DNA of 64,000 bases from Tipula vernalis. Its lineage: Eukaryota; Arthropoda; Insecta; Diptera; Tipulidae. The DNA lies in the NCBI GenBank assembly GCA_958295665.1, contig OY282560.1, positions 27,765,992-27,829,991 of the forward strand. The letters run 5' to 3'. Below the pieces are notes generated by a model. That model was not told the DNA's origin. It saw nothing but the letters and a program-made list of their open reading frames with translations, and did not search any database. Shown in pieces: positions 2,852-56,400 of the stretch. The stretch's first letter is position 1; every line of letters starts with the position of its first letter. A program made the position numbers and the translations under genes.

Positions 2852-3009
2852 AAGGTTAATTCACCAGATTGATCCATTGAGATCGTCAAGAAAATGACAA
2901 CTGGACGGAGTTAAAAACCGAGTCAAAAATATGTTTAACTCGGTTTCTAACTCCGTCAAATTATCATTTTCTTGACGATCTCAATGGACAAATCTGGTGA
3001 ATCAACCTT
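2852..3009. repeat. Long hairpin (72-bp inverted repeat), MITE-like
   Basis: The left arm (2852-2923) and right arm (2938-3009) are reverse complements apart from a few single-base differences, separated by a 14-base loop. The arms begin AAGGTTRATTCACCAGATT and end near CTCGGTTT. No protein is encoded. The size and structure fit a miniature inverted-repeat element or a folded-back remnant. I do not see an obvious target duplication at its ends, so the superfamily is open. Confidence 0.8.
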
Positions 3010-24360: not shown

Positions 24361-24362
24361 AG

Positions 24363-24934: not shown

Positions 24935-24944
24935 GAATGGCAGC

Positions 24945-26148
24945 ATGGAATTGGGCAGTCGAAGTTTAAAGACGCAGAAATCCAAATTAGGTTCGGTTGT
25001 AGGAGGTCGGTACGAAGCAGAAACCAGAGTAGCCACGCAGTCATTTGCAACCCTTATTGACATCGATGCTACGTTGCAAAAAGTTTGGACCATCGAAGAT
25101 GTTCCTCAAACCAACAAGATGACCGAAGAAGAACAATAATGCGAAGATTGGTTCAAGACAACCACGCGACGATCAAACGAAGGCAGATTCATAGTGAAGC
25201 TTACATTTAAGGAAACACCGAATGACCTAGGATCAACGTACCAACAAGCAGTGTCGAGACTATTGGCAGTCGAAAGACGATTCCAGACAAACAATCAATT
25301 CCACCAACTTTATCAGCAGTTTATGACAGAATATAAGGAGTTAAATCATATGCAGCCACGTAAGTTAAACGGTACCGAACTGCAACAAACCTATATGCTC
25401 CCACATCATGGCGTTTTCAAAAATAGCAGCAGCACAACTAAACAGCGCGTTGTATTTGACGCATCTGCAAAATCAACCACAGGTTTTTCATTGAATCAAA
25501 ATCCTAAAGATAGGTCCGAATGTGCAATCATCTTTGTTCCAGATTCTAACGCGATTCCGACAATATCCATATGTGCTAGTAGGCCATATTGAAAAAATGT
25601 ATCGTCAGGTTTTGGGGGACAAAGAAGATTCCAAACATCTGATAATCCTGTAGCGAGACGACGATAATCAAATACGACCATACGCACTTAACACCGTAAC
25701 CTGTGGCATGGCGTCTGTATCTTTCATGGCCACCAGATGCTTAAAGGAACTGGCAATTCTATACCTTCAGAAACATCCAGAAGCATGCCGAGCCATAGAA
25801 AGGGATATTTATGTAGACGACGTGAGGACCGGTGCTTCAACACTACCTGGGCTGTTGAAGCTGAAAGAGGATGTTTTGAACATTTTAGGAAGTAGGGGTT
25901 TCAATTTGCGCATACTGTCGTCGAATGATCCACAAATGCGGAATCTACTCAACAATCCAGGATCTAATTCCTTAAAAGTATTTTCCGATCATCCGGAACC
26001 GTTAAAAGTGTTGAGAATAGCGTTGGAACCTGCATCCGATCATTTGATCTTTCAAGTGCACTTAGAGGACAAGAAAGTTTACACCAAACGAAGCTTCCTG
26101 TCAGAGGCAAGCAAAATATTCGATCCCTCGGACTATTATTGCCAATAA
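24945..26148 (+). pseudogene. BEL/Pao reverse transcriptase, frameshifted
   Basis: Begins with a linker, VWTIEDVP (about 25,085), after a stretch too short for the usual protease-RT spacer, so a deletion is likely near 24,940-25,070. After a stop at 25,137 the next frame (25,194-25,592) reads RFIVKLTFKETPNDLGS (from about 25,180), YMLPHHGVFKNSS, and RVVFDASAK, the RT fingers. EKMYRQVL near 25,590 holds the palm. After a frame change the 25,708-26,148 frame has TCGMASVSFMATRCLKELA, then DIYVDDVRTGAST, where YVDD is the active site. The end, LSEASKIFDPSDYYCQ, marks the transition to RNase H. Functional copies are one frame. Confidence 0.9.
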
Positions 26149-26630
26149 TTATTAAGATTAAAATCTTATTTCAAAGTTTGTGGTTGCACAGGATTGAATG
26201 GGATGCACAGTTACCGCCAGAAGTGCAATCATCGTGGATTAGCCTGCGCAACAACCTTTGCCAAACGCCATAATTGAAAATTCCTAGATGTATTACTGCG
26301 TCGGATACCATTACCTTACACGGATTTTGTGATGCTAGCAAATGGGCTACATACAGCAGCTGGCTAAGCTCGATCACGAATCAAGGAAGGGTTTGTCACA
26401 CATCTAATTTGTGCAACAACCAAAGTACCACCATTGAAACAAGTCAGTATACCGAGATTGGAGCTAATGGGTGCAGTACTTCTCAGTCGATTGGTAAAAG
26501 ACGTTACTGAAATTTTATCAATCGAATCGATCAAAAATATTGTAGCTTTTTCAAACTGAAGAAAATTTTCGCATATGTCCTTAGATATGTCAACAACTCG
26601 AGGGCCAAGAAACGTCAATTAGAGAACCGA
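26149..26630 (+). pseudogene. BEL/Pao RNase H, heavily degenerate
   Basis: Traces of the RNase H domain. RCITASDTITLHGFCDASKWATY near 26,285 has the first catalytic Asp of the domain (FCDAS). A second frame reads SIPRLELMGAVLLSRLVKDV near 26,450, the conserved RLELM block. The remainder is reduced, with a jump to the pre-integrase segment at 26,631. Confidence 0.8.
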
Positions 26631-27936
26631 ATGGAAGTGCTAACAGCCGCAGAACTTGAAGAAGCTAACCGTAAAATAGTAGTGAACTGGCAAAAAGTAG
26701 ATTTTTCTGAGGAATATCGGTGTTTACAAAGGTCAAAACCAATACCCATTAAAATCAGTTTGCAGCAGCTGAATCCACTCCTAGATACTGAGGGAGTCAT
26801 GAGAGTAGGGGGTAGATTAGAAAAATCAACATTGCCATACAATAGTAAACATCCGATAATCATTTCTTCGAAGTCACCTGTAGCCACAGCTATTATTCAT
26901 GATATACATGAGCCTTGATGAGCCAAATAATGGGACAGCTGCCTGAAGATAGGGTACAATATACGGTGGCATTCGGTGCAGTCGGAGTAGATTTTCGCGG
27001 GCAGTTCAAGGTGCATGCTGTGCGACGAAGGGGTCATTACCTGTTAAATCATATTTGGCCATTTTTGTGTGCTTCAGTACGCACGCCATACATATCGAGG
27101 TTTGCATGAACCTTGGTACCGAGTCATTCCTGGGCGCATTGCGACGGTTAATAAGCAGAATAAGGCTTGGCCACACCATATATTGTGACAATGCTACAAA
27201 CTTTGTTGGCGCAAGGAATCATCTAGAGGAAGTATATACATTTATAAAAAGCAATAATGATTTTATTATTTCCAGTCTTCTGAAGGATAGAGTAAATTGG
27301 CGATTCATTCCGCCAGCAGCACCTAATCAAGGAGGATTATGGGAAAGTGTGGTAAAATCAACTAAAACACAGATCACACGAACCGTAGGCGATACAATAC
27401 TTACGCTTGAAGAATTTTCAACGCTTACAGTGCAAATTGAAGGCATTCTAAACTCCAGGCCAATTTGTTCCACCGATGATCACGACCTGGAATTTCTGAC
27501 GCCTGCCCACTTTCTAATTGGGCGCTCAATTCATCAGTTACCAGAAGCATCAACCGAGCAAAAATTAAATCCTCATACAAGATGGGACATCGTAAAACAG
27601 ATCTACAGGCAATTCTGGAAACGCTGGCAACTTGAGTATTTGACAAGTCTTCAGCAAAGGTGTAGATGGAATACACAACATAAAAATTTAAAGTTAAATG
27701 ATGTCGTTTTAATACACGATAATAATCTACCGCCCACTCAATGGTTGATGGGACGGGTCACAAAATTATACCCCGGCGATGACGGCTGTGTTCGAGTGGC
27801 TGATGTCAAGACCAAAAACGGCACACTCAAGCGATCAATCCAAAAATTATGTCGACTTCCAATCCTTGAATCTGATGATGATTCAACCCGGGGAGTATGT
27901 TCAAATGCAGATCAATTCCGGCCAGCTGAAGATTAA
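26631..27936 (+). pseudogene. BEL/Pao integrase; core frame long and open
   Basis: Pre-integrase part (26,631-26,918): PLLDTEGVMRVGGRLEKS then HPIIISSKSPVA, the zinc-binding entry. A frameshift and deletion separate it from the core. The 27,055-27,936 frame (293 codons) is the best-kept part of this element: FVCFSTHAIHIEVCMNL, TIYCDNATNFVGARN (second catalytic Asp), WRFIPPAAPNQGGLWESVVK (catalytic Glu), RPICSTDDHDLEFLTPAHFL, and the C-terminal domain ending KRSIQKLCRLPIL (DUF5641-type). The first catalytic Asp is expected near VGVDFRGQF (about 26,980) in the other frame. The stop codon at 27,934-27,936 lies 13 codons inside the 3' LTR. Confidence 0.92.
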
Positions 27937-28215
27937 ATATTAAAAGGGATTATAAATCCCTTTGCTAATTTTTACTTCTCTTGTTGACAGAAATGATAAC
28001 CTGAAATCACATAAAAATGTATCTTAATTATATAATATGTAATACTTATCTTAGCACGCCATTCAACCCCAATTAGTCTGCAATAGTTTAAACTTCCATA
28101 AATAATTTATATTTATATAATTGAATAATTTTCTCACCTCTTTGATTTGTTTACATTTATTTTGACAACTAAAAAAAAAACTTTCGATTGTAAACCCCAC
28201 CAAGAAAAATATTAA
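27898..28215 (+). repeat. BEL/Pao 3' LTR, first part only
   Basis: Starts TGTTCAAATGCAGATC directly after a purine-rich tract, GGGGAGTA, the expected polypurine tract. It matches 22,131-22,489. It ends in AAAAATATTAA, where the second solo LTR begins. The sequence after that solo LTR does not match the continuation of the 5' LTR, so the distal part of this LTR is missing or unrecognisable. Confidence 0.85.
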
Positions 28216-28691
28216 TGTGACGGTGACACCTAGTGTGTAATAGAATAAGTTAAATTGAGCTATTAGTGTTTACTGTACTAAAATGGAATTTTCCATGATA
28301 AAATTGTTACGTAATGTTTCTACGCTATTCTAACTAGAAAAGTCATGAACTTTCGAGAAGTTTGGTTTGTGTATATAAAAAGAACGCGAATTTGGAACGC
28401 GATAGAGTAGACTTGTAAGATTATTAGTGGTATTTGGAAAGCGACAGTGTGAAGATTAAAAATTAATTAAAAAGTGATTTAAAAAGTGTTGTAGTGCGAA
28501 ATAAAAATTATAAGTGAATAATAAAATTGCGTAAAAATTATTTAAAGTGATTTTGTGAATTTTTATTGATAAACTGTGTTGTAGTAATACTTGTGTGAAA
28601 TAAATAAATTCGTTGGTGATAAATTGAATTTAGTTTGTATTATTCACAATCCAATGATATGAACCTTGATTGACAAGGCAAAAACGTAACA
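28216..28691 (+). repeat. Solo LTR, family L (forward orientation)
   Basis: 476 bp from TGTGACGGTGAC to AAACGTAACA. A TATATAAAA box lies near 28,372 and AATAAATAAA near 28,602, so the plus strand is the sense direction. It is the inverted counterpart of 22,490-22,948. TAA is present on both sides, but a longer target duplication is not evident. Confidence 0.85.
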
Positions 28692-28958
28692 TAATTATAA
28701 TGATCTTCATTCCTCGATGGCTTAGCACTTTCTGCCTTTTTTATTTGAAGAATCATAAATTTATTATATTAACATATTTGATTTACAGTTTTACTTAAAG
28801 CTAAAGTCAACAATACATTGTGATGTTGGTGTTTTCCTCACACATACCACAACAATATTAAAGTTATCCACAAGATAATCTTTTATGGAATAGAAACTAT
28901 AGTTCTGGTTAGTTCTGGAAGTTTGTCTTAGTTACTAAATTATTTATAATTAATTTCA

Positions 28959-37187: not shown

Positions 37188-38214
37188 GTGGCCCATTGTG
37201 ATACAACAGGATCTTATCTCTCCTTTACCCCTGAAACCATCCGGTGCTACTTATGTAGCGTAAAATATCTCGCACTTCACAGTTCGCGAGTTCCGAAAGG
37301 CTGTCCATACCGTACACACCCAAGTATTTATGTCTTCTGTATGATAGTGCCGGACACGAGCATAGGAAGTGATCTAAAGTCTCTTCCTCCTCCTCGTCCA
37401 TGCAACTTCTACAAAAGTCATTTGTCTGTAGACTCAGCCTTCTCGCGTGTTCCCCAAAAAGGAAGTGTCCTGTCAGTATCCCTAAGACCAATCCTAATTC
37501 TCGTCTTCCCAGGGATATCAGTGCCTTGGAGCGCCGCGAGTCCAGTTTTAGCCAAACCTGTTTTGCTATCCTGCACGTGAAAAAAAAGGCGATTGCCTTT
37601 CTACTGAGCGCCAATTTGAGAGCTGCTATAGGCCTCCCCAGACCTGCCCTTTCCGTCTGCATCTGGAGAGTCGTACCGTACCTAGCTAGTTCGTCCGCCC
37701 TGCAATTCCTCGTGATGTCCGAGTGACCAGGGACCCAGATTATCTGGATACTGAAATACTCGCTCATCTCATAAACAGATGATCGGCAATCCAGCGCCAC
37801 CCGTGACCTCAGACAAACCGCCTCTGGTGATCTGACCGCCGCCTGACTGTCCACATAAATTGCGATATCCCTTACTGATACCACATTATGAGTCAACCAT
37901 GTCACGACTTCCCCGATCGCCACCACTTCAGCTTGGTACACGCTGCAGTAGTCAGGAAGACGAACAGAAATATTAACATTAAGCTTCTCACATAAGACTC
38001 CGGGTCCTACCTTACTATCTAGCTTAGAGCCGTCCGTGAAAAATTGCACTGCCTCGTTTTCCAGTATTGATCCGTCCCTCCAGCATTCCCTTGAACGACA
38101 GACGGTCCGGAACCCTTTATCGAAGCACAAGGTTGGTATAACATAATCTAGACTCATCAGTTCATCCCTTGTGATCCAACTATCGTCGAGTGCCCCACCT
38201 GCAGACACTTCCAA
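37188..38214 (-). pseudogene. LOA copy 2 ORF2: RNase H and C-terminal zinc motif (open 329-codon frame)
   Basis: This is the longest clean protein frame in the window, 37,225-38,214. VQFFTDGSKLDSKVG gives the first RNase H Asp, YQAEVVAIGE the Glu, IAIYVDSQAAV the second Asp and HSDITRNCRADELAR the fourth acidic residue, so all four are in place. After it comes a C-terminal Cys-His cluster, FCRSCMDEEEEETLDHFLCSC, of the CCHC type found at the end of ORF2 in this group. The presence of RNase H separates this element from R1 and Jockey and supports LOA or a sister clade of the I group. The preceding thumb frame overlaps it in another phase, so a frameshift lies near 38,200. It is labelled a pseudogene because the whole ORF2 is interrupted. 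Confidence 0.9.
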
Positions 38215-39330
38215 TAAGAGACAGCTGTAAGTCGCATAGCCACCTCGGCTGCCTTCTGCTTACCAAAAACATCTACTGGAATAAGGTGGAACATAACCTC
38301 CAAAGCGCGAGTAGGTGTCGTCGTAAGCGCCCAGCTTATAAGCATGCAGGCCGTTCTTTGCACCCTTTCCATTCTACTCCTGTATGTTACCTTGTCCAGA
38401 GCTGGCCATCGCACGCCCACTCCGTACATAAGTACAGGTCTCACCACGGCAGTGTACAGCCAGTGTACCAGCTCCGGTTTCAAACCCCATCTCTTACCTA
38501 AGGCATTCCTGCACGAGTAAATGGCTACAGTGGCCTTATTTACCCTTTCTAACGTGTTAGGCATCCAGCTGAGTTTACTATCCAAGATTATGCCCAAGAA
38601 TCTCGCTCTATCAGAAAAAAGTCAGTCTAGTGCCCTTTATCGTAAGCGGGCAAACAACCGGAATTTTCTACTTCCTGGTAAAAAGTACCAGCTCTGTCTT
38701 GGACGGGTTGATCCCTAATCCACTTTTGCTGGCCCATTTAATAACGACCAATAGTGCATTCTGCATAACATCTCTAATCGTATCCAAATATTTACCTGAT
38801 ACCGCTATCGCTACATCATCTGCGTACCCTACAACCAATATTCCCTCTCTCTCCAGTTCCAACAGCAATTCGGTAATCACTATACTCCAGAGAGAAGGGG
38901 ACATTACACCTCTCTGCGGGGTTCCTCTAACCACCCGCCTTCTAATTGTGAACTCCCCCAGTTCTGTAGTAATAACCCTGCTTAACAGCATATGATTAAT
39001 CAACCTACTTATAGAGTAATCCACCTTCAAAGCTGACAATCCCTCCATGATCGCCTCCGTCTTCACGTTTTTAAAGGCACCTTCAATATCGAGGAATGAG
39101 ACCATACAGAACTCCTGCGAGTAAATTGACTTCTCAATTGTGCGTACCAAAGCGTGCTTGACATTGCCCAATTGCTGGGTTCAATTTTTCATCGTATAAA
39201 TACATCCACCATCCTTTCCAATGTTTTCAGGAGAAAGAATCATAGAGTTATAGGCCTCAGATCCTTCGGATAAGCATGCGAGCTTTTCCCCGCTTTCGGA
39301 ATGAAGACCACCTTGACCTCCGTCCATTTC
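38157..39330 (-). pseudogene. LOA copy 2 ORF2: reverse transcriptase palm and thumb
   Basis: Minus strand. The palm frame 38,668-39,171 reads VSFLDIEGAFKNV (catalytic Asp), RGTPQRGVMSPSLW (normally PQGG), VVGYADDVAIAVSG (YADD active site), and GLGINPSKTELVLF. The thumb frame 38,157-38,597 begins MGIILDSKLSWMPN and continues through YSCRNALGKRWGLKPELVHW, VLMYGVGVRWPAL and ALTTTPTRALEVMF. One frame change separates them near 38,610-38,670 and another leads to RNase H. Confidence 0.9.
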
Positions 39331-40040
39331 CTAAGAATATAGACAAATTTCAGACATCCTCTGAAGATCATCTCCAGCCAGGGAAGGATGACTGCCAAGT
39401 TCCTCTAGATCTCCGCTGGTAATAATCCTATCTGGGCCAGCCGATTTATAAGGCTTAAACCCGTTCATTGCCCACGCGTTCCGTTCCCTATCCACAATGC
39501 CCTCCATTTCTATTGAAGGTATTTCTCGATGAGCCCCCGGCTCTGTCGAGTCATCGAGGGTTCCCGGAAAGTGCGTATTTATTAGAAGCTCCAGAGATTC
39601 CGTACTAGAAGCTGTCCATGACCCATGCGGCCTAATTAAATAACTAGGACCGGTTGGGTTTGTAGAAAGAATCTTCCTAAGGCGGTAAGCCTCAGATACC
39701 TCTTCCATTTTACCACAGAAGTCTTCAGGACCCTCTTTGTGCCTTCCTCACCTCTCTTTTATAATTCCTCAGGTATATGAGTCCCAATGCCGGGCTTCCC
39801 TGGTATTCTTGGCCCTATTAAAGGCTACCCTACAAGCCTTCCGATAGGTCTCCAACCCAGTGGACCACCATGTTGGCTTCTGTTTGCCCCTAAGTTTTAT
39901 CAGGGGGCACAAAGCATTTAATGAAAGATTGCATGCCTTTGTGACAATATCAACCATGCAATCCAGTTCTTCTACTGTCGCCGGAAGTTCTGGAACCTCC
40001 AGGGGCAATACCTCCTCTATCACCTCCCCACATTTGTTCC
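39331..40040 (-). pseudogene. LOA copy 2 ORF2: RT N-terminal part and linker
   Basis: Minus strand: 39,769-40,023 holds PATVEELDCMVDIVTKACN and KPTWWSTGLETYRKACRV, a linker conserved in copy 1; 39,331-39,708 holds AYRLRKILSTNPTGPSYL and NGFKPYKSAGPDRI, the start of RT. Further RT segments (39,180-39,330) such as FHSESGEKLACLS-like text are in other frames. Frame changes separate the parts. Confidence 0.85.
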
Positions 40041-40760
40041 AGTTTGTCCTTCTAGGATTCCTGAAGGCTTTCCGGGTAACAGTTGAGGTTATAAATTACA
40101 TACCGGTGATCAGAGAATGAGTGCTCATTCTCCACTCTCCATCCCCTGATCATATCAAAAATAATATCTGACGCAAATGTCACATCTAAGACCTCCTTTC
40201 AATTCCTCACAATAAATGTTGGTGCTCGCCCAATATTGCAAACTAAAAGGTTAGTATTTAATAAGTATTCAAAAAAATAACTCACCGCTTTCATTAATGT
40301 ATGTGCTTCCCCAGATTGTGTGATGCGCGTTTGCATCACATCCAAGTATGACACCTACCTTTCTTTGACCTGCTTCCCGGATCAGTTCCCCAGGTTATCC
40401 GGTGGAACCTCCTTCTCCCGATCCGTATAGGCTGAGGCAGGCCATAATTTTTCACAGGCAACTTAAACGCTCGCCGCGGTAACATCCCCACTACTAAATT
40501 GAGGAAGAAGAAAAATATTCAATTATTTTTCGCCAAAATACACGATCTGATTTTCTCAGAGTTGCCTGAGTATAATAATTTATACCCTTTCGTTCTGGCC
40601 ACAGATCCTGCTATTGTTAATCCAAGGTTCTTGGATTAGCACCAAGTCCTCACCTGACCTAGTCATTCTGAGAACGAGAGCTGTCGAGGCAGCCTTCGTG
40701 TGATGCAGGTTTATTTGTCTACAATGTTAACCATTGTGACCTACCTTATTCATCTCTTCC
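40041..40760 (-). pseudogene. LOA copy 2 ORF2: endonuclease
   Basis: Minus strand, several frames: NLHHTKAASTALVLRM near 40,680-40,720 is the start region (compare NLHHSKAASAALIL in copy 1), LVLIQEPWINN near 40,630 carries the catalytic Glu, FSSGDVTAASV near 40,470 and CNIGRAPTFIV near 40,210 follow, and FSDHRYVIYNL near 40,100 is the terminal SDH motif with the catalytic Asp-His. Multiple stops and shifts mean it is inactive. Confidence 0.82.
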
Positions 40761-41440
40761 TCTACTTCTCGTTTCGGAAAAGTAACCCCTGGACAACCGC
40801 CGCTATCCGTCGTTTCACCGCCCATCTTCTCTTTTGATCGTTTTATGTGGTCGCCGTTGCCATGCCCCCTCGCGGAGACTTCAACTTTTCATACTTTTTG
40901 GTTTTCCCCATCAGAGTCTAGAGAAAGGGAGCAGGCTTGAACAACCATCATTTCGGCCTCCGTATCCGTCTCCGGAAGATCAACACCTTCCTTCCCGACG
41001 TTTATCCCAGGCTGGTTTCCCACTTGCGTGTCCACCTCATCCTTCTTATACACATTGAGCGTGATCGACCCGAATCCGAAGCTGATCACTCCCTTTGTTT
41101 CCGCGAAGAGAGTTAGGGACTCCCTGTTTAACAGCATAACAGTCAACCTATAGCCCCCTTTGGCCTCCTCTTGTTTCACTATCTTCCACTTCTTTGCCGG
41201 AAGATGTGGGTCAATGACCTCCTCAGGCTTCTCTGGCTTGGTTGGCAACCAAATGCGTGCCCTCGGTCTGCTCGGAATTTCCTCCTTATTGACCGCCTCC
41301 AGCTTCGCGCCCTGCCATACTTCGCCTACTTTGGCCACTGCCATTTTGTACAGATCCACCGATCTTTTATCTGGACGGTGGGGGTCCCGGATTATCTCTC
41401 AGGACTTCCAAAAATACGGAGTTCAGTTCGTTGTAAACCA
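40761..41440 (-). pseudogene. LOA copy 2 ORF1, C-terminal part
   Basis: Minus strand. From 41,440 the frame reads VYNELNSVFLEVL, then, after a frame change, DLYKMAVAKVGEVWQGAKL (open from 41,359) and RARIWLPTKPEKPEEV, KKWKIVKQEEAKGGYRLTV, LLNRESLTLF, GVISFGFGSITLNVYKKDE. This is the nucleic-acid-binding-type domain (DUF4780-like). It continues from the N-terminal part across the satellite element: the bases TTGTAAACCA at 41,431-41,440 are repeated at 55,853-55,862. A stop near 40,889 ends the visible frame. Confidence 0.85.
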
Positions 41441-41606
41441 CGGATGAGAAGTTTGTCCTAAACTGTCCTAAACCAATAACAACAAATGTGGATGTGAGAA
41501 TGTATGTGTTTAAATATAAAAAAAAAATGTCATTTAGGCGAAAATTATATATTGTAATAAAAAAATTTTATATATTTGAAATATTTTACATTAATATATA
41601 TTTTAT
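41441..41606. repeat. Left terminal repeat and unique left end of the satellite-bearing element
   Basis: The subterminal region holds two direct TGTCCTAAA units (41,454 and 41,464 region) and a short AAC run, mirrored at the right end. The rest is AT-rich non-coding sequence leading into the first partial monomer near 41,607. Confidence 0.8.
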
Positions 41607-44600
41607 AACTGAACTAGATCCATTCTATATAAAACATGAGTAGGTACACAAGTATGTTAGGATTCCACATTAACTTGGTTATTACGTTGAAATCACAAAT
41701 CAAAATTTTCATGAATTTTCTTTCGATATTTCTAAGAGGTTACTACGGCTGAAATGGACATTTTCACATTGAACTAAAACCATTCTATACAAAACATATC
41801 ACATTTCCGGAAAATGTTGGGGAAAAGTATGTTAGGATCCACTTTCACTTGCTTAGTACGTTTAAATCAAAAATCAAAATTTTCATGAATTTTCTTTCGA
41901 TATTTCTAAGAGGTTACTACGGCTGAAATTGACATTTTCACGTTGAACTAGAACCATTCTATACAAAACATATCACATTTCCGGAAAATGTTGGGGAAAA
42001 GTATGTTAGGATTCCACTTTTACTTGCTTAGTACGTTTAAATCAAAAATCAAAATTTTCATGAATTTTCTTTCGATATTTCTAAGAGGTTACTACGGCTG
42101 AAATGGACATTTTCACATTGAACTAGAACCATTCTATACAAAACATATCACATTTCCGGAAAATGTTGGGGAAAAGTATGTTAGGATTCCACTTTTACTT
42201 GCTTATTACGTTTAAATCAAAAATCGAAATTTTCATGAATTTTCTTTCGATATTTCTAAGAGGTTACTACAGCTGAAATGGACATTTTCACGTTGAACTA
42301 GAACCATTCTATACAAAACATATCCCATTTCCGGAAAATGTTGGGGAAAAGTATGTTAGGATCCACTTTCACTTGCTTAGTACGTTTAAATCAAAAATCA
42401 AAATTTTCATGAATTTTCTTTCGATATTTCTAAGAGGTTACTACGGCTGAAATGGACATTTTCACATTGAACTAGAACCATTCTATACAAAACATATCAC
42501 ATTTCCGGAAAATGTTGGGGAAAAGTATGTTAGGATTCCACTTTTACTTGCTTATTACGTTTAAATCAAAAATCGAAATTTTCATGAATTTTCTTTCGAT
42601 ATTTCTATGAGGTTACTACAGCTGAAATGGACATTTTCACGTTGAACTAGAACCATTCTATACAAAACATATCCCATTTCCGGAAAATGTTGGGGAAAAG
42701 TATGTTAGGATTCCACTTTTACTTGCTTATTACGTTTAAATCAAAAATCGAAATTTTCATGAATTTTCTTTCGATATTTCTAAGAGGTTACTACAGCTGA
42801 AATGGACATTTTCACGTTGAACTAGAACCATTCTATACAAAACATATCACATTTCCGGAAAATGTTGGGGAAAAGTATGTTAGGATTCCACTTTTACTTG
42901 CTTATTACGTTTAAATCAAAAATCGAAATTTTCATGAATTTTCTTTCGATATTTCTAAGAGGTAACTACAGCTGAAATGGACATTTTCACGTTGAACTAG
43001 AACCATTCTATACAAAACATATCCCATTTCCGGAAAATATTGGGGTAAAGTATGTTAGGATCCACTTTCACTTGCTTAGTACGTTTAAATCAAAAATCAA
43101 AATTTTCATGAATTTTCTTTCGATATTTCTAAGAGGTTACTACGGCTGAAATGGACATTTTCACGTTGAACTAGAACCATTCTATACAAAACATATCACA
43201 TTTCCGGAAAATGTTGGGGAAAAGTATGTTAGGATCCACTTTCACTTGCTTAGTACGTTTAAATCAAAAATCAAAATTTTCATGAATTTTCTTTCGATAT
43301 TTCTAAGAGGTTATTACGGCTGAAATGGACATTTTCACGTTGAACTAGAACCATTCTATACAAAACATATCACATTTCCGGAAAATGTTGGGGAAAAGTA
43401 TGTTAGGATTCCACATTTACTTGCTTAGTACGTTAAAATCAAAAATCAAAATTTTCATGAATTTTTTTTTCGATATTTCTAAAAGGTTACTACGGCTGAA
43501 ATGGACATTTTTATATTGAACTAGAACCATTCTATCCAAAACATATCACATTTCCGGAAAATGTTGGGGAAAAGTATGTTAGGATCCACTTTTACTTGCT
43601 TAGTACGTTTAAATCAAAAATCAAAATTTTCATGAATTTTCTTTCGATATTTCTAAGAGGTTACTACGGCTGAAATGGACATTTTCACGTTGAACTAGAA
43701 CCATTCTATACAAAACATATCACATTTCCGGAAAATATTGGGGAAAAGTATGTTAGGATTCCACATTAACTTGGTTAGTACGTTAAAATCAAAAATCAAA
43801 ATTTTCATGAATTTTTTTTCGATATTTCTAAGAGGTTACTACGGCTGAAATGGACATTTTCATATTGAACTAGAACCATTCTATACAAAACATATCACAT
43901 TTCCGGAAAATGTTGGGGAAAAGTATGTTAGGATTCCACTTTTACTTGCTTATTACGTTTAAATCAAAAATCAAAATTTTCATGAATTTTCTTTCGATAT
44001 TTCTAAGAGGTTACTACGGCTGAAATGGACATTTTCATATTGAACTAGAACCATTCTATCCAAAACATATCACATTTCCGGAAAATGTTGGGGAAAAGTA
44101 TGTTAGGATTCCACTTTTACTTGCTTAGTAGGATTAAATCAAAAATCAAAATTTTCATGAATTTTCTTTCGATATTTCTAAGAGGTTACTACGGCTGAAA
44201 TGGACATTTTCATATTGAACTAGAACCATTCTATCCAAAACATATCACATTTCCGGAAAATGTTGGGGAAAAGTATGTTAGGATTCCACTTTTACTTGCT
44301 TATTACGTTTAAATCAAAAATCAAAATTTTCATGAATTTTCTTTCGATATTTCTAAGAGGTTACTACGGCTGAAATGGACATTTTCACATTGAACTAGAA
44401 CCATTCTATACAAAACATATCACATTTCCGGAAAATGTTGGGGAAAAGTATGTTAGGATTCCACTTTTACTTGCTTATTACGTTTAAATCAAAAATCGAA
44501 ATTTTCATGAATTTTCTTTCGATATTTCTAAGAGGTTACTACAGCTGAAATGGACATTTTCACGTTGAACTAGAACCATTCTATACAAAACATATCCCAT

Positions 44601-45158
44601 TTCCGGAAAATGTTGGGGAAAAGTATGTTAGGATCCACTTTCACTTGCTTAGTACGTTTAAATCAAAAATCAAAATTTTCATGAATTTTCTTTCGATATT
44701 TCTAAGAGGTTACTACGGCTGAAATGGACATTTTCACATTGAACTAGAACCATTCTATACAAAACATATCACATTTCCGGAAAATGTTGGGGAAAAGTAT
44801 GTTAGGATTCCACTTTTACTTGCTTATTACGTTTAAATCAAAAATCGAAATTTTCATGAATTTTCTTTCGATATTTCTATGAGGTTACTACAGCTGAAAT
44901 GGACATTTTCACGTTGAACTAGAACCATTCTATACAAAACATATCCCATTTCCGGAAAATATTGGGGAAAAGTATGTTAGGATCCACTTTCACTTGCTTA
45001 GTACGTTTAAATCAAAAATCGAAATTTTCATGAATTTTCTTTCGATATTTCTAAGAGGTTACTACGGCTGAAATGGACATTTTTACATTGAACTAGAACC
45101 ATTCTATCCAAAACATATCACATTTCCGGAAAATGTTGGGGAAAAGTATATTAGGATT
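41607..45158. repeat. Satellite block A, about 20 forward monomers of 174-175 bp
   Basis: Monomer starts marked by AGTATGTTAGGAT occur at 41,651, 41,826, 42,000, 42,175, 42,350, 42,524 and onward with 174-175-bp spacing. Conserved features are TTTCCGGAAAATGTTGGGG, CGATATTTCTA-GAGGTTACTAC, and GAACTAGAACCATTCTA. Positional variants (CATATCCC or CATATCAC; ATACAAAAC or ATCCAAAAC; ATCGAAA or ATCAAAA) define monomer subtypes. A rare variant TGGGGTAAAG marks one monomer at 43,041. Confidence 0.97.
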
Positions 45159-45623
45159 CCGGAAATGTGATATGTTTTGGATAGAATGGTTCTAGTTCAA
45201 TGTGAAAATGTCCATTTCAGCCGTAGTAACCTCCTAGAAATATCGAAAGAAAATTCATGAAAAGTTTTACTTTTGATTTAAACGTACTAAGCAAGTAAAA
45301 GTGGAATCCCAACATACTTTTCCCCAACATTTTCCGGAAATATGATATGCTTTGGATAGAATAGTTCTAGTTCAATATAAAAATGTCCATTTCAGCCGTA
45401 GTAACCTCTAAGAAATATCGAAAAAAAAATTCATGAAAATTTTGATTTTTAACTTTACATTTATTTATTTATTATTTTGAAGCTTAATAATTACATCAAT
45501 CTCAAAAAAAAAAATCCGCCTCAATGTTTTCTTGTTTTTCCTTACAAAACTTTATTATGTTCACTAATACTAATAAATAGTTTTGGGATCTAGGACAAAC
45601 TTCTTAGTATTATATAACCATTC
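45159..45623. repeat. Inverted monomers and unique spacer closing block A
   Basis: At 45,156-45,163 the array flips orientation head to head through TTAGGATTCCGGAAATG, giving about 1.7 inverted monomers to 45,450. Then comes a unique 173-bp spacer (45,451-45,623) with AACTTTACATTTATTTATTT and, at 45,591-45,601, TAGGACAAACT, which is the inverted form of the element terminus. Confidence 0.92.
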
Positions 45624-48600
45624 TACGTTAAAATCAAAAATCAAAATTTTCATGAATTTTTTTTCGATATTTCTAAGAGGTTACTACGGCTGAAATGGAC
45701 ATTTTCATATTGAACTAGAACCATTCTATCCAAAACATATCACATTTCCGGAAAATGTTGGGGAAAAGTATGTTAGGATTCCACTTTTACTTGCTTATTA
45801 CGTTTAAATCAAAAATCAAAATTTTCATGAATTTTCTTTCGATATTTCTAAGAGGTTACTACGGCTGAAATGGACATTTTCACATTGAACTAGAACCATT
45901 CTATACAAAACATATCACATTTCCGGAAAATGTTGGGGAAAAGTATGTTAGGATTCCACTTTTACTTGCTTAGTACGTTTAAATCAAAAATCAAAATTTT
46001 CATGAATTTTCTTTCGATATTTCTAAGAGGTTACTACGGCTGAAATGGACATTTTCACATTGAACTAAAACCATTCTATACAAAACATATCACATTTCCG
46101 GAAAATGTTGGGGAAAAGTATGTTAGGATCCACTTTCACTTGCTTAGTACGTTTAAATCAAAAATCAAAATTTTCATGAATTTTCTTTCGATATTTCTAA
46201 GAGGTTACTACGGCTGAAATGGACATTTTCACATTGAACTAAAACCATTCTATACAAAACATATCACATTTCCGGAAAATGTTGGGGAAAAGTATGTTAG
46301 GATTCCACTTTTACTTGCTTAGTACGTTTAAATCAAAAATCAAAATTTTCATGAATTTTCTTTCGATATTTCTAAGAGGTTACTACGGCTGAAATGGACA
46401 TTTTCACATTGAACTAGAACCATTCTATACAAAACATATCACATTTCCGGAAAATGTTGGGGAAAAGTATGTTAGGATTCCACTTTTACTTGCTTATTAC
46501 GTTTAAATCAAAAATCGAAATTTTCATGAATTTTCTTTCGATATTTCTAAGAGGTTACTACAGCTGAAATGGACATTTTCACGTTGAACTAGAACCATTC
46601 TATACAAAACATATCCCATTTCCGGAAAATGTTGGGGAAAAGTATGTTAGGATTCCACTTTTACTTGCTTATTACGTTTAAATCAAAAATCGAAATTTTC
46701 ATGAATTTTCTTTCGATATTTCTAAGAGGTTACTACAGCTGAAATGGACATTTTCACGTTGAACTAGAACCATTCTATACAAAACATATCACATTTCCGG
46801 AAAATGTTGGGGAAAAGTATGTTAGGATTCCACTTTTACTTGCTTATTACGTTTAAATCAAAAATCGAAATTTTCATGAATTTTCTTTCGATATTTCTAA
46901 GAGGTTACTACAGCTGAAATGGACATTTTCACGTTGAACTAGAACCATTCTATACAAAACATATCCCATTTCCGGAAAATATTGGGGTAAAGTATGTTAG
47001 GATCCACTTTCACTTGCTTAGTACGTTTAAATCAAAAATCAAAATTTTCATGAATTTTCTTTCGATATTTCTAAGAGGTTACTACGGCTGAAATGGACAT
47101 TTTCACGTTGAACTAGAACCATTCTATACAAAACATATCACATTTCCGGAAAATGTTGGGGAAAAGTATGTTAGGATCCACTTTCACTTGCTTAGTACGT
47201 TTAAATCAAAAATCAAAATTTTCATGAATTTTCTTTCGATATTTCTAAGAGGTTATTACGGCTGAAATGGACATTTTCACGTTGAACTAGAACCATTCTA
47301 TACAAAACATATCACATTTCCGGAAAATGTTGGGGAAAAGTATGTTAGGATTCCACATTTACTTGCTTAGTACGTTAAAATCAAAAATCAAAATTTTCAT
47401 GAATTTTTTTTTCAATATTTCTAAAAGGTTACTACGGCTGAAATGGACATTTTCATATTGAACTAGAACCATTCTATCCAAAACATATCACATTTCCGGA
47501 AAATGTTGGGGAAAAGTATGTTAGGATCCACTTTTACTTGCTTAGTACGTTTAAATCAAAAATCAAAATTTTCATGAATTTTCTTTCGATATTTCTAAGA
47601 GGTTACTACGGCTGAAATGGACATTTTCACGTTGAACTAGAACCATTCTATACAAAACATATCACATTTCCGGAAAATATTGGGGAAAAGTATGTTAGGA
47701 TTCCACATTAACTTGGTTAGTACGTTAAAATCAAAAATCAAAATTTTCATGAATTTTTTTTCGATATTTCTAAGAGGTTACTACGGCTGAAATGGACATT
47801 TTCTTATTGAACTAGAACCATTCTATCCAAAACATATCACATTTCCGGAAAATGTTGGGGAAAAGTATGTTAGGATTCCACTTTTACTTGCTTAGTAGGA
47901 TTAAATCAAAAATCAAAATTTTCATGAATTTTCTTTCGATATTTCTAAGAGGTTACTACGGCTGAAATGGACATTTTCATATTGAACTAGAACCATTCTA
48001 TCCAAAACATATCACATTTCCGGAAAATGTTGGGGAAAAGTATGTTAGGATTCCACTTTTACTTGCTTAGTAGGATTAAATCAAAAATCAAAATTTTCAT
48101 GAATTTTCTTTCGATATTTCTAAGAGGTTACTACGGCTGAAATGGACATTTTCATATTGAACTAGAACCATTCTATCCAAAACATATCACATTTCCGGAA
48201 AATGTTGGGGAAAAGTATGTTAGGATTCCACTTTTACTTGCTTATTACGTTTAAATCAAAAATCAAAATTTTCATGAATTTTCTTTCGATATTTCTAAGA
48301 GGTTACTACGGCTGAAATGGACATTTTCACATTGAACTAGAACCATTCTATACAAAACATATCACATTTCCGGAAAATGTTGGGGAAAAGTATGTTAGGA
48401 TTCCACTTTTACTTGCTTATTACGTTTAAATCAAAAATCGAAATTTTCATGAATTTTCTTTCGATATTTCTAAGAGGTTACTACAGCTGAAATGGACATT
48501 TTCACGTTGAACTAGAACCATTCTATACAAAACATATCCCATTTCCGGAAAATGTTGGGGAAAAGTATGTTAGGATCCACTTTCACTTGCTTAGTACGTT

Positions 48601-49100
48601 TAAATCAAAAATCAAAATTTTCATGAATTTTCTTTCGATATTTCTAAGAGGTTACTACGGCTGAAATGGACATTTTCACATTGAACTAGAACCATTCTAT
48701 ACAAAACATATCACATTTCCGGAAAATGTTGGGGAAAAGTATGTTAGGATTCCACTTTTACTTGCTTATTACGTTTAAATCAAAAATCGAAATTTTCATG
48801 AATTTTCTTTCGATATTTCTATGAGGTTACTACAGCTGAAATGGACATTTTCACGTTGAACTAGAACCATTCTATACAAAACATATCCCATTTCCGGAAA
48901 ATATTGGGGAAAAGTATGTTAGGATCCACTTTCACTTGCTTAGTACGTTTAAATCAAAAATCGAAATTTTCATGAATTTTCTTTCGATATTTCTAAGAGG
49001 TTACTACGGCTGAAATGGACATTTTTACATTGAACTAGAACCATTCTATCCAAAACATATCACATTTCCGGAAAATGTTGGGGAAAAGTATATTAGGATT
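45624..49100. repeat. Satellite block B, about 20 forward monomers
   Basis: Continues in the same direction as block A. The TGGGGTAAAG variant recurs at 46,983, exactly 3,942 bp after that in block A. Confidence 0.97.
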
Positions 49101-49565
49101 CCGGAAATGTGATATGTTTTGGATAGAATGGTTCTAGTTCAATGTGAAAATGTCCATTTCAGCCGTAGTAACCTCCTAGAAATATCGAAAGAAAATTCAT
49201 GAAAAGTTTTACTTTTGATTTAAACGTACTAAGCAAGTAAAAGTGGAATCCCAACATACTTTTCCCCAACATTTTCCGGAAATATGATATGCTTTGGATA
49301 GAATAGTTCTAGTTCAATATAAAAATGTCCATTTCAGCCGTAGTAACCTCTAAGAAATATCGAAAAAAAAATTCATGAAAATTTTGATTTTTAACTTTAC
49401 ATTTATTTATTTATTATTTTGAAGCTTAATAATTACATCAATCTCAAAAAAAAAAATCCGCCTCAATGTTTTCTTGTTTTTCCTTACAAAACTTTATTAT
49501 GTTCACTAATACTAATAAATAGTTTTGGGATCTAGGACAAACTTCTTAGTATTATATAACCATTC
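49101..49565. repeat. Inverted monomers and unique spacer closing block B
   Basis: A near copy of 45,159-45,623, shifted by exactly 3,942 bp (junction at 49,093 versus 45,151; spacer start at 49,393 versus 45,451; TAGGACAAACT at 49,533). Confidence 0.92.
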
Positions 49566-52500
49566 TACGTTAAAATCAAAAATCAAAATTTTCATGAATT
49601 TTTTTTCGATATTTCTAAGAGGTTACTACGGCTGAAATGGACATTTTCATATTGAACTAGAACCATTCTATCCAAAACATATCACATTTCCGGAAAATGT
49701 TGGGGAAAAGTATGTTAGGATTCCACTTTTACTTGCTTATTACGTTTAAATCAAAAATCAAAATTTTCATGAATTTTCTTTCGATATTTCTAAGAGGTTA
49801 CTACGGCTGAAATGGACATTTTCACATTGAACTAGAACCATTCTATACAAAACATATCACATTTCCGGAAAATGTTGGGGAAAAGTATGTTAGGATTCCA
49901 CTTTTACTTGCTTAGTACGTTTAAATCAAAAATCAAAATTTTCATGAATTTTCTTTCGATATTTCTAAGAGGTTACTACGGCTGAAATGGACATTTTCAC
50001 ATTGAACTAAAACCATTCTATACAAAACATATCACATTTCCGGAAAATGTTGGGGAAAAGTATGTTAGGATCCACTTTCACTTGCTTAGTACGTTTAAAT
50101 CAAAAATCAAAATTTTCATGAATTTTCTTTCGATATTTCTAAGAGGTTACTACGGCTGAAATTGACATTTTCACGTTGAACTAGAACCATTCTATACAAA
50201 ACATATCACATTTCCGGAAAATGTTGGGGAAAAGTATGTTAGGATTCCACTTTTACTTGCTTAGTACGTTTAAATCAAAAATCAAAATTTTCATGAATTT
50301 TCTTTCGATATTTCTAAGAGGTTACTACGGCTGAAATGGACATTTTCACATTGAACTAGAACCATTCTATACAAAACATATCACATTTCCGGAAAATGTT
50401 GGGGAAAAGTATGTTAGGATTCCACTTTTACTTGCTTATTACGTTTAAATCAAAAATCGAAATTTTCATGAATTTTCTTTCGATATTTCTAAGAGGTTAC
50501 TACAGCTGAAATGGACATTTTCACGTTGAACTAGAACCATTCTATACAAAACATATCCCATTTCCGGAAAATGTTGGGGAAAAGTATGTTAGGATTCCAC
50601 TTTTACTTGCTTATTACGTTTAAATCAAAAATCGAAATTTTCATGAATTTTCTTTCGATATTTCTAAGAGGTTACTACAGCTGAAATGGACATTTTCACG
50701 TTGAACTAGAACCATTCTATACAAAACATATCACATTTCCGGAAAATGTTGGGGAAAAGTATGTTAGGATTCCACTTTTACTTGCTTATTACGTTTAAAT
50801 CAAAAATCGAAATTTTCATGAATTTTCTTTCGATATTTCTAAGAGGTTACTACAGCTGAAATGGACATTTTCACGTTGAACTAGAACCATTCTATACAAA
50901 ACATATCCCATTTCCGGAAAATATTGGGGTAAAGTATGTTAGGATCCACTTTCACTTGCTTAGTACGTTTAAATCAAAAATCAAAATTTTCATGAATTTT
51001 CTTTCGATATTTCTAAGAGGTTACTACGGCTGAAATGGACATTTTCACGTTGAACTAGAACCATTCTATACAAAACATATCACATTTCCGGAAAATGTTG
51101 GGGAAAAGTATGTTAGGATCCACTTTCACTTGCTTAGTACGTTTAAATCAAAAATCAAAATTTTCATGAATTTTCTTTCGATATTTCTAAGAGGTTATTA
51201 CGGCTGAAATGGACATTTTCACGTTGAACTAGAACCATTCTATACAAAACATATCACATTTCCGGAAAATGTTGGGGAAAAGTATGTTAGGATTCCACAT
51301 TTACTTGCTTAGTACGTTAAAATCAAAAATCAAAATTTTCATGAATTTTTTTTTCGATATTTCTAAAAGGTTACTACGGCTGAAATGGACATTTTCATAT
51401 TGAACTAGAACCATTCTATCCAAAACATATCACATTTCCGGAAAATGTTGGGGAAAAGTATGTTAGGATCCACTTTTACTTGCTTAGTACGTTTAAATCA
51501 AAAATCAAAATTTTCATGAATTTTCTTTCGATATTTCTAAGAGGTTACTACGGCTGAAATGGACATTTTCACGTTGAACTAGAACCATTCTATACAAAAC
51601 ATATCACATTTCCGGAAAATATTGGGGAAAAGTATGTTAGGATTCCACATTAACTTGGTTAGTACGTTAAAATCAAAAATCAAAATTTTCATGAATTTTT
51701 TTTCGATATTTCTAAGAGGTTACTACGGCTGAAATGGACATTTTCATATTGAACTAGAACCATTCTATACAAAACATATCACATTTCCGGAAAATGTTGG
51801 GGAAAAGTATGTTAGGATTCCACTTTTACTTGCTTATTACGTTTAAATCAAAAATCAAAATTTTCATGAATTTTCTTTCGATATTTCTAAGAGGTTACTA
51901 CGGCTGAATTGGACATTTTCATATTGAACTAGAACCATTCTATCCAAAACATATCACATTTCCGGAAAATGTTGGGGAAAAGTATGTTAGGATTCCACTT
52001 TTACTTGCTTAGTAGGATTAAATCAAAAATCAAAATTTTCATGAATTTTCTTTCGATATTTCTAAGAGGTTACTACGGCTGAAATGGACATTTTCATATT
52101 GAACTAGAACCATTCTATCCAAAACATATCACATTTCCGGAAAATGTTGGGGAAAAGTATGTTAGGATTCCACTTTTACTTGCTTATTACGTTTAAATCA
52201 AAAATCAAAATTTTCATGAATTTTCTTTCGATATTTCTAAGAGGTTACTACGGCTGAAATGGACATTTTCACATTGAACTAGAACCATTCTATACAAAAC
52301 ATATCACATTTCCGGAAAATGTTGGGGAAAAGTATGTTAGGATTCCACTTTTACTTGCTTAGTACGTTTAAATCAAAAATCAAAATTTTCATGAATTTTC
52401 TTTCGATATTTCTAAGAGGTTACTACGGCTGAAATGGACATTTTCACATTGAACTAAAACCATTCTATACAAAACATATCACATTTCCGGAAAATGTTGG

Positions 52501-55314
52501 GGAAAAGTATGTTAGGATCCACTTTCACTTGCTTAGTACGTTTAAATCAAAAATCAAAATTTTCATGAATTTTCTTTCGATATTTCTAAGAGGTTACTAC
52601 GGCTGAAATGGACATTTTCACGTTGAACTAGAACCATTCTATACAAAACATATCACATTTCCGGAAAATATTGGGGAAAAGTATGTTAGGATTCCACATT
52701 AACTTGGTTAGTACGTTAAAATCAAAAATCAAAATTTTCATGAATTTTTTTTCGATATTTCTAAGAGGTTACTACGGCTGAAATGGACATTTTCATATTG
52801 AACTAGAACCATTCTATACAAAACATATCACATTTCCGGAAAATGTTGGGGAAAAGTATGTTAGGATTCCACTTTTACTTGCTTATTACGTTTAAATCAA
52901 AAATCAAAATTTTCATGAATTTTCTTTCGATATTTCTAAGAGGTTACTACGGCTGAAATGGACATTTTCACGTTGAACTAGAACCATTCTATACAAAACA
53001 TATCACATTTCCGGAAAATATTGGGGAAAAGTATGTTAGGATTCCACATTAACTTGGTTAGTACGTTAAAATCAAAAATCAAAATTTTCATGAATTTTTT
53101 TTCGATATTTCTAAGAGGTTACTACGGCTGAAATGGACATTTTCATATTGAACTAGAACCATTCTATACAAAACATATCACATTTCCGGAAAATGTTGGG
53201 GAAAAGTATGTTAGGATTCCACTTTTACTTGCTTATTACGTTTAAATCAAAAATCAAAATTTTCATGAATTTTCTTTCGATATTTCTAAGAGGTTACTAC
53301 GGCTGAATTGGACATTTTCATATTGAACTAGAACCATTCTATCCAAAACATATCACATTTCCGGAAAATGTTGGGGAAAAGTATGTTAGGATTCCACTTT
53401 TACTTGCTTAGTAGGATTAAATCAAAAATCAAAATTTTCATGAATTTTCTTTCGATATTTCTAAGAGGTTACTACGGCTGAAATGGACATTTTCATATTG
53501 AACTAGAACCATTCTATCCAAAACATATCACATTTCCGGAAAATGTTGGGGAAAAGTATGTTAGGATTCCACTTTTACTTGCTTATTACGTTTAAATCAA
53601 AAATCAAAATTTTCATGAATTTTCTTTCGATATTTCTAAGAGGTTACTACGGCTGAAATGGACATTTTCACATTGAACTAGAACCATTCTATACAAAACA
53701 TATCACATTTCCGGAAAATGTTGGGGAAAAGTATGTTAGGATTCCACTTTTACTTGCTTAGTACGTTTAAATCAAAAATCAAAATTTTCATGAATTTTCT
53801 TTCGATATTTCTAAGAGGTTACTACGGCTGAAATGGACATTTTCACATTGAACTAAAACCATTCTATACAAAACATATCACATTTCCGGAAAATGTTGGG
53901 GAAAAGTATGTTAGGATCCACTTTCACTTGCTTAGTACGTTTAAATCAAAAATCAAAATTTTCATGAATTTTCTTTCGATATTTCTAAGAGGTTACTACG
54001 GCTGAAATTGACATTTTCACGTTGAACTAGAACCATTCTATACAAAACATATCACATTTCCGGAAAATGTTGGGGAAAAGTATGTTAGGATTCCACTTTT
54101 ACTTGCTTAGTACGTTTAAATCAAAAATCAAAATTTTCATGAATTTTCTTTCGATATTTCTAAGAGGTTACTACGGCTGAAATGGACATTTTCACATTGA
54201 ACTAGAACCATTCTATACAAAACATATCACATTTCCGGAAAATGTTGGGGAAAAGTATGTTAGGATTCCACTTTTACTTGCTTATTACGTTTAAATCAAA
54301 AATCGAAATTTTCATGAATTTTCTTTCGATATTTCTAAGAGGTTACTACAGCTGAAATGGACATTTTCACGTTGAACTAGAACCATTCTATACAAAACAT
54401 ATCCCATTTCCGGAAAATGTTGGGGAAAAGTATGTTAGGATCCACTTTCACTTGCTTAGTACGTTTAAATCAAAAATCAAAATTTTCATGAATTTTCTTT
54501 CGATATTTCTAAGAGGTTACTACGGCTGAAATGGACATTTTCACATTGAACTAGAACCATTCTATACAAAACATATCACATTTCCGGAAAATGTTGGGGA
54601 AAAGTATGTTAGGATTCCACTTTTCCTTGCTTATTACGTTTAAATCAAAAATCGAAATTTTCATGAATTTTCTTTCGATATTTGTATGAGGTTACTACAG
54701 CTGAAATGGACATTTTCACGTTGAACTAGAACCATTCTATACAAAACATATCCCATTTCCGGAAAATGTTGGGGAAAAGTATGTTAGGATCCACTTTCAC
54801 TTGCTTAGTACGTTTAAATCAAAAATCAAAATTTTCATGAATTTTCTTTCGATATTTCTAAGAGGTTACTACGGCTGAAATGGTCATTTTCACATTGAAC
54901 TAGAACCATTCTATACAAAACATATCACATTTCCGGAAAATGTTGGGGAAAAGTATGTTAGGATTCCACTTTTACTTGCTTATTACGTTTAAATCAAAAA
55001 TCAAAATTTTCATGAATTTTCTTTCGATATTTCTATGAGGTTACTACAGCTGAAATGGACATTTTCACGTTGAACTAGAACCATTCTATACAAAACATAT
55101 CCCATTTCCGGAAAATATTGGGGAAAAGTATGTTAGGATCCACTTTCACTTGCTTAGTACGTTTAAATCAAAAATCAAAATTTTCATGAATTTTCTTTCG
55201 ATATTTCTAAGAGGTTACTACGGCTGAAATGGACATTTTTACATTGAACTAGAACCATTCTATCCAAAACATATCACATTTCCGGAAAATGTTGGGGAAA
55301 AGTATATTAGGATT
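49566..55314. repeat. Satellite block C, about 33 forward monomers (expanded)
   Basis: The first TGGGGTAAAG variant is at 50,925, again 3,942 bp on. The block then runs 2,272 bp longer than A or B before its inverted junction at 55,307; 2,272 bp is 13 monomers. Within the extension, groups of monomers repeat in the same order (for example around 51,650-52,160, 52,690-52,860 and 53,040-53,550), which suggests unequal exchange. Confidence 0.95.
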
Positions 55315-55852
55315 CCGGAAATGTGATATGTTTTGGATAGAATGGTTCTAGTTCAATGTGAAAATGTCCATTTCAGCCGTAGTAACCTCCTAGAAATATC
55401 GAAAGAAAATTCATGACAAGTTTTACTTTTGATTTAAACGTACTAAGCAAGTAAAAGTGGAATCCCAACATACTTTTCCCCAACATTTTCCGGAAATATG
55501 ATATGCTTTGGATAGAATAGTTCTAGTTCAATATAAAAATGTCCATTTCAGCCGTAGTAACCTCTAAGAAATATCGAAAAAAAAATTCATGAAAATTTTG
55601 ATTTTTAACTTTACATTTATTTATTTATTATTTTGAAGCTTAATAATTACATCAATCTCAAAAAAAAAAATCCGCCTCAATGTTTTCTTGTTTTTCCTTA
55701 CAAAACTTTATTATGTTCACTAATACTAATAAATAGTTTTGGGATCTAGGACAAACTTCTTAGTATTATATAGTCGTATGAAGTTTTTCCTAAACTTGTC
55801 CTAAAATGTTGTTGTTGTTTTTAGGACAAATTTAGGACAAACTCCTCGCGAA
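55315..55852. repeat. Inverted monomers, spacer and right terminal hairpin of the element
   Basis: The inverted monomers and spacer match those closing blocks A and B (spacer from 55,607, TAGGACAAACT at 55,747). After TTAGTATTATATA the sequence differs and forms a hairpin: 55,780-55,806 (GAAGTTTTTCCTAAACTTG...) pairs with 55,819-55,845, with a GTT-repeat loop. The second arm is the right terminal repeat of the whole element. Confidence 0.88.
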
Positions 55853-56400
55853 TTGTAAACCAACTTCCATTTTTCAGCCGTAATGCTCCCGTCTTCCTGA
55901 CCCTTGTCAATAACGGCTAACATCAAGGCATGCTCTTTCAAGATTTCGCTGAACAGCTTCATCTTTTGGTTATTTTGGGCTCCTGTGGTCACCTTGGCTC
56001 GTTTAGCGTCGCTCGGTACTTCCTCATCAAGTGACCTCATTCTTTTCGAACCAAGATCCTTATTCAAAGTGCCATTGCCGACAACTTTCCTCGCCCATGC
56101 CCCAGATTCCTTTTGTTCTGCTGTTAACTGCCCCTCTGGAGTCGCAGTCAGCCTTTCCAAAATTATTTGCGCCGACCGTTTTTTACGATATCGTCACTTC
56201 GCCGGAGGGACCCCTTCCGATCCCCTGCTTTTTTGTTTGGCTCCGGTTCCGCTTATACCTGGGTTTAATGTCACGGTATTGCTTCCCACCGCCGCTAAGG
56301 AGGGAGCTCCACCTTTAAGGTTCAAGCTACTCCCCTCCTTGTTGCTTCCCGATTTTTGAAGGGTACCGGCCCCTATTTCTTTTATTTTTGTATCGTTCAT
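55853..56400 (-). pseudogene. LOA copy 2 ORF1, N-terminal part
   Basis: Minus strand. The likely start is ATG at 56,398-56,400 (MNDTKIKEIGAG). The frame is Ser/Gly/Lys-rich, reaches one in-frame stop (TGA after EGVPPAK, about 56,195), and continues in the same frame as RYRKKRSAQ, LTATPEGQLTAEQKESGAW, and SKRMRSLDEEVPSDAKRAKV, ending ITAEKWKLVYN at the insertion. It resumes at 41,440. The basic, low-complexity N-terminal region is typical of ORF1 in this group. Apart from the stop and the insertion it is well preserved. Confidence 0.82.

Follow-up and report, generated by a model that had tools for sequence, protein, structure and literature searches.

The 14.4-kb block in the window was found to be one copy of a dispersed mobile-element family. 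The combined evidence makes it very probable that this copy is a non-autonomous foldback DNA transposon lying in a dead LOA-type LINE, that the arrays mostly grew after landing, and that the 175-bp repeat which fills them is captive to the element. The window is the whole stretch of 64,000 nucleotides from Tipula vernalis that was analysed (C3:27765992-27829991), and the search for further copies covered the 1.27-Gb assembly that contains it, with contigs labelled C1, C2 and C3.

The boundaries of the insertion were set by comparing 25 copies side by side. The sequence TTGTAAACCA occurs exactly at 41431-41440 and 55853-55862 and at no other place in the window on either strand; the chance of exact 10-mer identity at one given position pair, estimated from base composition, is about 2e-6. 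The preliminary description took this match as a 10-bp target duplication. A direct repeat does flank the insertion with exact copies at both edges, but the length of 10 bp was ruled out by the comparison of copies, which gives 8 bp at the window and 8-9 bp across the family and moves the boundaries to 41440-55853. The outermost A and T were assigned to the element because they are constant in all 25 copies, and the 10-bp match is thus composed of one element base per side and chance flank bases around an 8-bp duplication. Between the two ends of the element the outermost A/T agree and the next five bases disagree. The duplication was exact over 8 bp in 13 copies and over 9 bp in seven, matched at 7/8 bases in three, and was not clear in two, L077 and L020, the latter with a degraded right end. 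When left flanks were paired with the right flanks of other copies as a control, none of the 600 mismatched pairs matched at 8/8 bases and two matched at 7/8.

The flanks agree with the earlier claim that the LOA ORF1 continues once one repeat copy is removed. The frame is intact across the joined flanks, and in the alignment the ORF1 homologues P0060 and P0062 span the join ungapped at that point. The nearest named LOA relatives are from Diptera: Episyrphus (48%), Rhagoletis (44%) and Drosophila grimshawi (41%). The insertion and its host are as follows.

37225..41431, minus strand: LOA-type LINE on the left flank, comprising pieces of ORF2 and the 3' part of ORF1, with frameshifts and stops already present
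41432..41439, no strand: target-site duplication, left copy TGTAAACC, 8 bp, set by comparing 25 copies
41440..55853, plus strand: the complete element (14,414 bp), which begins with A and ends with T in 25/25 copies
55854..55861, no strand: target-site duplication, right copy TGTAAACC, set by comparison of copies
55862..56190, minus strand: flanking LOA-type LINE, 5' part of ORF1, from the joined-flank frame and homologues; upstream limit approximate

The internal anatomy of the window copy was resolved at the level of single monomers. The outer ends had been described as inverted repeats, and 41446-41485 indeed pairs with 55847-55809 at 85%. The count of monomers is likewise in accordance with the more than 70 units of 174-175 bp reported before: 79 monomer stretches were found, 73 direct and 6 inverted, and 71 of them cover more than 165 of the 175 consensus positions. 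The array as assembled is not one plain array. It consists of three head-to-tail units, each of which runs from direct monomers through about 1.7 inverted monomers to a 162-bp right-subterminal piece that is identical in the three places (45455-45616, 49397-49558 and 55611-55772). The switch to inverted monomers makes a palindrome of 611 bp with 89% agreement in each unit, at 44840-45450, 48782-49392 and 54996-55606. Units 1 and 2, offset by 3942 bp, show 9 differences in 3237 positions (42380-45616), and unit 3 has its own length, 2272 bp above unit 2 (offsets 6214 and 3942), together with scattered substitutions. At the right end, the 80-base stretch that precedes the final T (55773-55852) folds with a z-score of -5.85, none of 200 shuffles being equally stable, and the hairpin arms are 55782-55806 and 55819-55843. 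The parts of the element are listed below.

41440..41620, plus strand: left end, inverted-repeat core 41446-41485 with its inverted match at 55809-55847; 40/40 scored genome matches at 91-100%
41650..45143, plus strand: unit 1 left arm, 20 direct monomers of 174-175 bp
45157..45457, minus strand: unit 1 inverted monomers past the switch point
45455..45616, plus strand: unit 1 right-subterminal copy, 162/162 identical to 55611-55772
45624..49085, plus strand: unit 2 direct monomers, offset 3942 from unit 1
49099..49399, minus strand: unit 2 inverted monomers
49397..49558, plus strand: unit 2 right-subterminal copy
49566..55299, plus strand: unit 3 direct monomers
55313..55613, minus strand: unit 3 inverted monomers, which form the right arm
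55611..55772, plus strand: right subterminal segment, present in 22/22 fetched loci with a right end (25 loci scanned)
55773..55853, plus strand: right end, a hairpin with left-type and right-type end motifs (55773-55852) and the terminus CTCCTCGCGAAT

The ends of the element are dispersed through the genome. A 20-mer of the left end, searched with at most one mismatch, gave 76 matches against 1 for the backward control. The left end as a whole (180 bases, 41441-41620) gave 111 candidates, and the 40 that were scored all matched at 91-100% near full length; for the right end (242 bases) there were 386 candidates, with 91-100% again for the 40 scored. Thirty of these 40 right ends have a same-strand left end 679-32,005 bp away, and for the other 10 a partner left end was absent from the pattern list. 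Three of the 20 stretches read (L063, L064 and L080) have a left end but show none of the right type over about 9 kb. The proposal of a mobile-element insertion is borne out by other loci with the same ends and target duplications, which were seen in 23 of the 25 copies tested, three of them at 7/8 bases. Short versions with 0-2 monomers, which the preliminary description had proposed to look for, also exist, since L028 measures 681 bp and holds about 1.5 monomers. Some copies carry other material in their interiors. The non-satellite interiors of L061, L062 and L065 have reverse-transcriptase or gag-like frames, judged by eye and read on that basis as nested LINE pieces, and a long CA repeat lies inside L072. 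At C1:6054030-6058301 two left-type ends stand 3.2 kb apart on one strand, upstream of a single right end, which is perhaps a tandem element pair.

The order of parts is constant among the copies. In each of the 23 copies read from one end to the other, the left end is followed by direct 175-bp monomers, a switch, inverted monomers and the right end. The foldback anatomy proposed earlier is thus present as both monomer orientations in every one of them, and the traits of the foldback class were found together: inverted arms of tandem repeats in 23/23 copies and an 8-9-bp duplication in 23/25, three with one mismatch. From about 1.5 to about 180 monomers lie between the ends across the copies read, and the two arms vary independently. 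The left and right arms hold 18.4 and 1.7 monomers in L067, 1.4 and 17.7 in L066, 16.5 and 8.9 in L068, 47.3 and 0.4 in L074, and 0.5 and 1.0 in L028. Some right-arm monomers of L079 (C2:4784143-4786225) are spaced by 152-155 bp and not by 175, a shorter variant inside one copy.

The point at which the monomers switch orientation is a lineage tag. Junction A, marked by a monomer variant of its own, is found in the window copy, L067, L005 and L035, and with few mismatches in L066 and the 32-kb copy (L004/L039). Its left arms range from about 0.4 monomers (L035) and 1.4 (L005) up to about 180 in the 32-kb copy, a figure inferred from the length of that copy and sampled stretches. Both ends and two inner 2-kb stretches of the 32-kb copy were sampled, and the inner stretches were monomer over 1996 and 2001 of 2001 bases. 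Junction B is common to L071 and L074, with left arms of 17 and 47 monomers. Junction C occurs in L028, L078, L079, L054 and L056, the last two read over their last 1.7 kb only, with a left arm of 0.5 and right arms of 0.9-13.8 monomers. Inside each of the three sets, one arm is strongly unequal in length.

The relation among the monomers was analysed with a tree and a nearest-neighbour test on 286 monomers, leaving out units 2 and 3 of the window copy. The tree required 87 changes of copy label, compared to 212-231 in 100 shuffles. The strictly nearest monomer lay within the same copy for 186 of the 286, compared to 3-15 in 20 shuffles, and for 16 of the 21 monomers of window unit 1. Of the others, 57 were nearest to a monomer of another copy, 40 were tied and 3 had no mate in their own copy. 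Among the 57 are 8 of the 15 monomers taken from the 32-kb copy and 7 of the 19 of L067. The cross-copy neighbours and the ties indicate that the element carried several types of monomer with it as it moved. Arm lengths vary by a factor of more than 100 among copies with the same junction, and the monomers cluster by copy; the arrays thus grew mostly, though not wholly, after insertion, and did so from a starter set with at least two types of monomer. Between the two options put forward in the preliminary description, growth inside the element is favoured by the junctions and the clustering, and insertion of an entire array is not. A clean higher-order repeat of four monomers was seen within one copy, L071. 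Array size showed no link with the divergence of the ends, taken as a proxy for age (Spearman -0.11, p 0.60, 26 copies).

The main competitor of this reading is that long arrays transpose whole, a grown copy being cut and pasted so that ready-made satellite arrays are seeded at new sites. Long copies do possess both ends and duplications, at 11.5 kb (7/8 bases) and at 13.1, 14.4 and 32 kb (exact); some of their monomers are nearest to those of other copies, and near-identical monomers are common to L068, L070 and L072. No collinear order of the best-matching monomers was seen by eye in eight pairs of copies, a comparison that is weak where monomers are near-identical. The clustering of monomers by copy and the great length differences among copies with the same junction also speak against it, and whole-array transposition was judged unlikely as compared with growth after landing.

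The distribution of the repeat outside the copies was also examined. A 24-mer of the monomer gave 534 matches in the genome, 244 of them inside the 23 copies, and none for the backward control. On C1, where all places were followed, the 87 matches form 23 clusters, and 19 clusters (83 places) lie within 3.5 kb of an element end. No free array was found on C1 among exact 24-mer matches, the remaining 4 of 87 being single matches; the exact 24-mer, carried by 251 of 339 sampled monomers, misses diverged ones. The 175-bp repeat thus appears to be a captive satellite, living mainly inside the element, and the earlier picture of satellites being seeded at new sites, in the sense of an independent satellite, finds no support on C1. 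Capture of a free satellite was rejected on the absence of a free array among the exact 24-mer matches on C1. A monomer 21-mer had no match in viral or prokaryote contigs, and six monomer 20-22-mers had none in the main texts of the literature searched.

Two other explanations were weighed against the captive repeat and its transposon. According to one, an ordinary chromosomal satellite with the 175-bp unit was captured, or came to lie between inverted repeats that are unrelated; the array does resemble satellite DNA with higher-order structure, but this is highly improbable given the constant order between constant ends in 23/23 end-to-end copies, the 83 of 87 places on C1 close to an element end, and the other copies that carry the same ends, which contradicts their being unrelated. 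The other, an assembly artefact in which repeats were collapsed or multiplied between the LOA flanks, gains something from the near identity of units 1 and 2 (9 differences in 3237 positions), and is scarcely credible against the same ends at 25 loci with duplications at 23, the own length and scattered substitutions of unit 3, and flanks whose reading frame continues across the join in accordance with LOA homologues.

The favoured reading, growth after landing, may be pictured as follows. The basic unit of the family comprises the left end, a few direct 175-bp repeats, the switch, a few inverted repeats, the right subterminal segment and the hairpin right end. Short to moderate forms would be mobilised by a transposase supplied from elsewhere, and once in place either arm would be lengthened by unequal exchange or by slippage during replication. 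In the window copy, a 3.9-kb block of array, palindrome and subterminal segment would itself have been repeated head to tail. Satellite origin inside transposons has often been proposed, mostly from end states. The family provides a graded series in one genome, with common ends and junctions, arrays of about 1 to more than 100 monomers and mostly a target duplication of their own. With such a series, the emergence of a satellite and its growth can be measured for each insertion and each arm, and one can ask whether long arrays halt the movement of the element.

Foldback elements are known from other Diptera. The FB elements of Drosophila melanogaster have inverted arms of tandem short repeat units and 9-bp duplications; their units are short compared with the 175-bp monomer, and the likeness is one of described structure. 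The closest precedent is Tetris of Drosophila virilis and D. americana, and foldbacks with satellite-forming arms are already known from the accessible part of that report, where the arm repeats expand to satellite-like arrays of up to 66 copies (PMC4079207). Tetris is similarly a non-autonomous foldback with tandem repeats (about 220 bp) in inverted arms; its target duplications are 8-10 bp against 8-9 bp here, and no transposase was found for either, for Tetris as far as that part of the report goes (PMC4079207). It differs in having a middle domain and flanking domains as long as 866 bp, whereas the matching ends measure about 40 bp in the present family and the two subterminal regions are unlike, and three structurally complete copies are described there against 23 end-to-end copies and three long ones read at their ends here (PMC4079207). 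Kinship in sequence was compared through four published Tetris primers only, a weak test, which gave no hint of kinship, with 6-8 mismatches in the 23 copies and 6-7 in reversed controls. Galileo, of the P superfamily in Drosophila, also has long, internally repetitive arms with unequal numbers of about 210-bp repeats per arm, and differs in its 7-bp duplications, at most 2-3 repeats per arm and a known transposase (PMC3573991, in the part accessible). Rehavkus of insects and annelids makes a 9-bp duplication and has a minisatellite ahead of the 3' inverted repeat; as described in the accessible text its repeat is near the 3' end only, whereas here the repeat is in both arms and no transposase was found (PMC6446971). 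A family with these ends was not found in the literature searched, a search outside of which most subscription journals fall. Compared with these precedents, the family differs by its many copies, of widely varying size, that keep both ends and a target duplication, by junctions that link short forms to long ones, and by the absence of free arrays on C1, the contig examined.

The source of the transposase was sought among MULE genes. No MULE transposase with these ends was present among the 144 compared (150 scored of 1401 candidates), and the autonomous relative envisaged in the preliminary description was not recovered in this set. The nearest of those compared lies 16.7 kb from a variant end, and otherwise none is within 20 kb of the listed ends. 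No DNA transposase was recognised by eye among the frames seen in the interiors of L061, L062, L065 and L072. Duplications of 8-9 bp also fit P elements. They fall as well in the range of the Mutator superfamily, whose members make target duplications of 8-11 bp (PMC6446971). A Mutator-like and a P-like origin are both possible for the element. A Helitron or DINE with tandem repeats was ruled out, since the copies show target duplications and have inverted ends. Genes for MULE transposases abound in the genome; many of them score identically and have open frames of 466-477 residues, suggestive of activity in the recent past.

A sister-type end was found in L084 (C2:211638240-211641240), with GATGTGAAG in its motif and 87.5% agreement with the left end over about 31 bases. 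The position of the 175-bp repeat is occupied there by an unrelated tandem repeat of 183 bp. Three further ends of this variant were listed, and the one read, L083, showed no comparable array in the 3 kb read. A tentative, less likely idea is that this lineage of transposons serves, through its ends, as a satellite nursery, in which the repeat just inside would be amplified after each landing and different branches would hold different captive satellites; the 3 kb read of L083 speak against it, and it is drawn from the one sister copy, L084. L084 also has a reading frame with a weak Ulp1-protease likeness, below the Pfam cut-off, and may encode an Ulp1-like protease.

Other features were observed in the window. 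A second tandem array, unrelated to the first, occupies 8492-11073 with units of 116, 146 and about 305 bp. Retroelement frames at 22131-28697 stand between direct repeats (22131-22487 and 27898-28216) with a further inverted pair (22484-22955 and 28209-28697), an odd combination; by eye, the whole looks like a BEL/Pao element. A palindrome of 158 bp with 88.6% agreement is present at 2852-3009.
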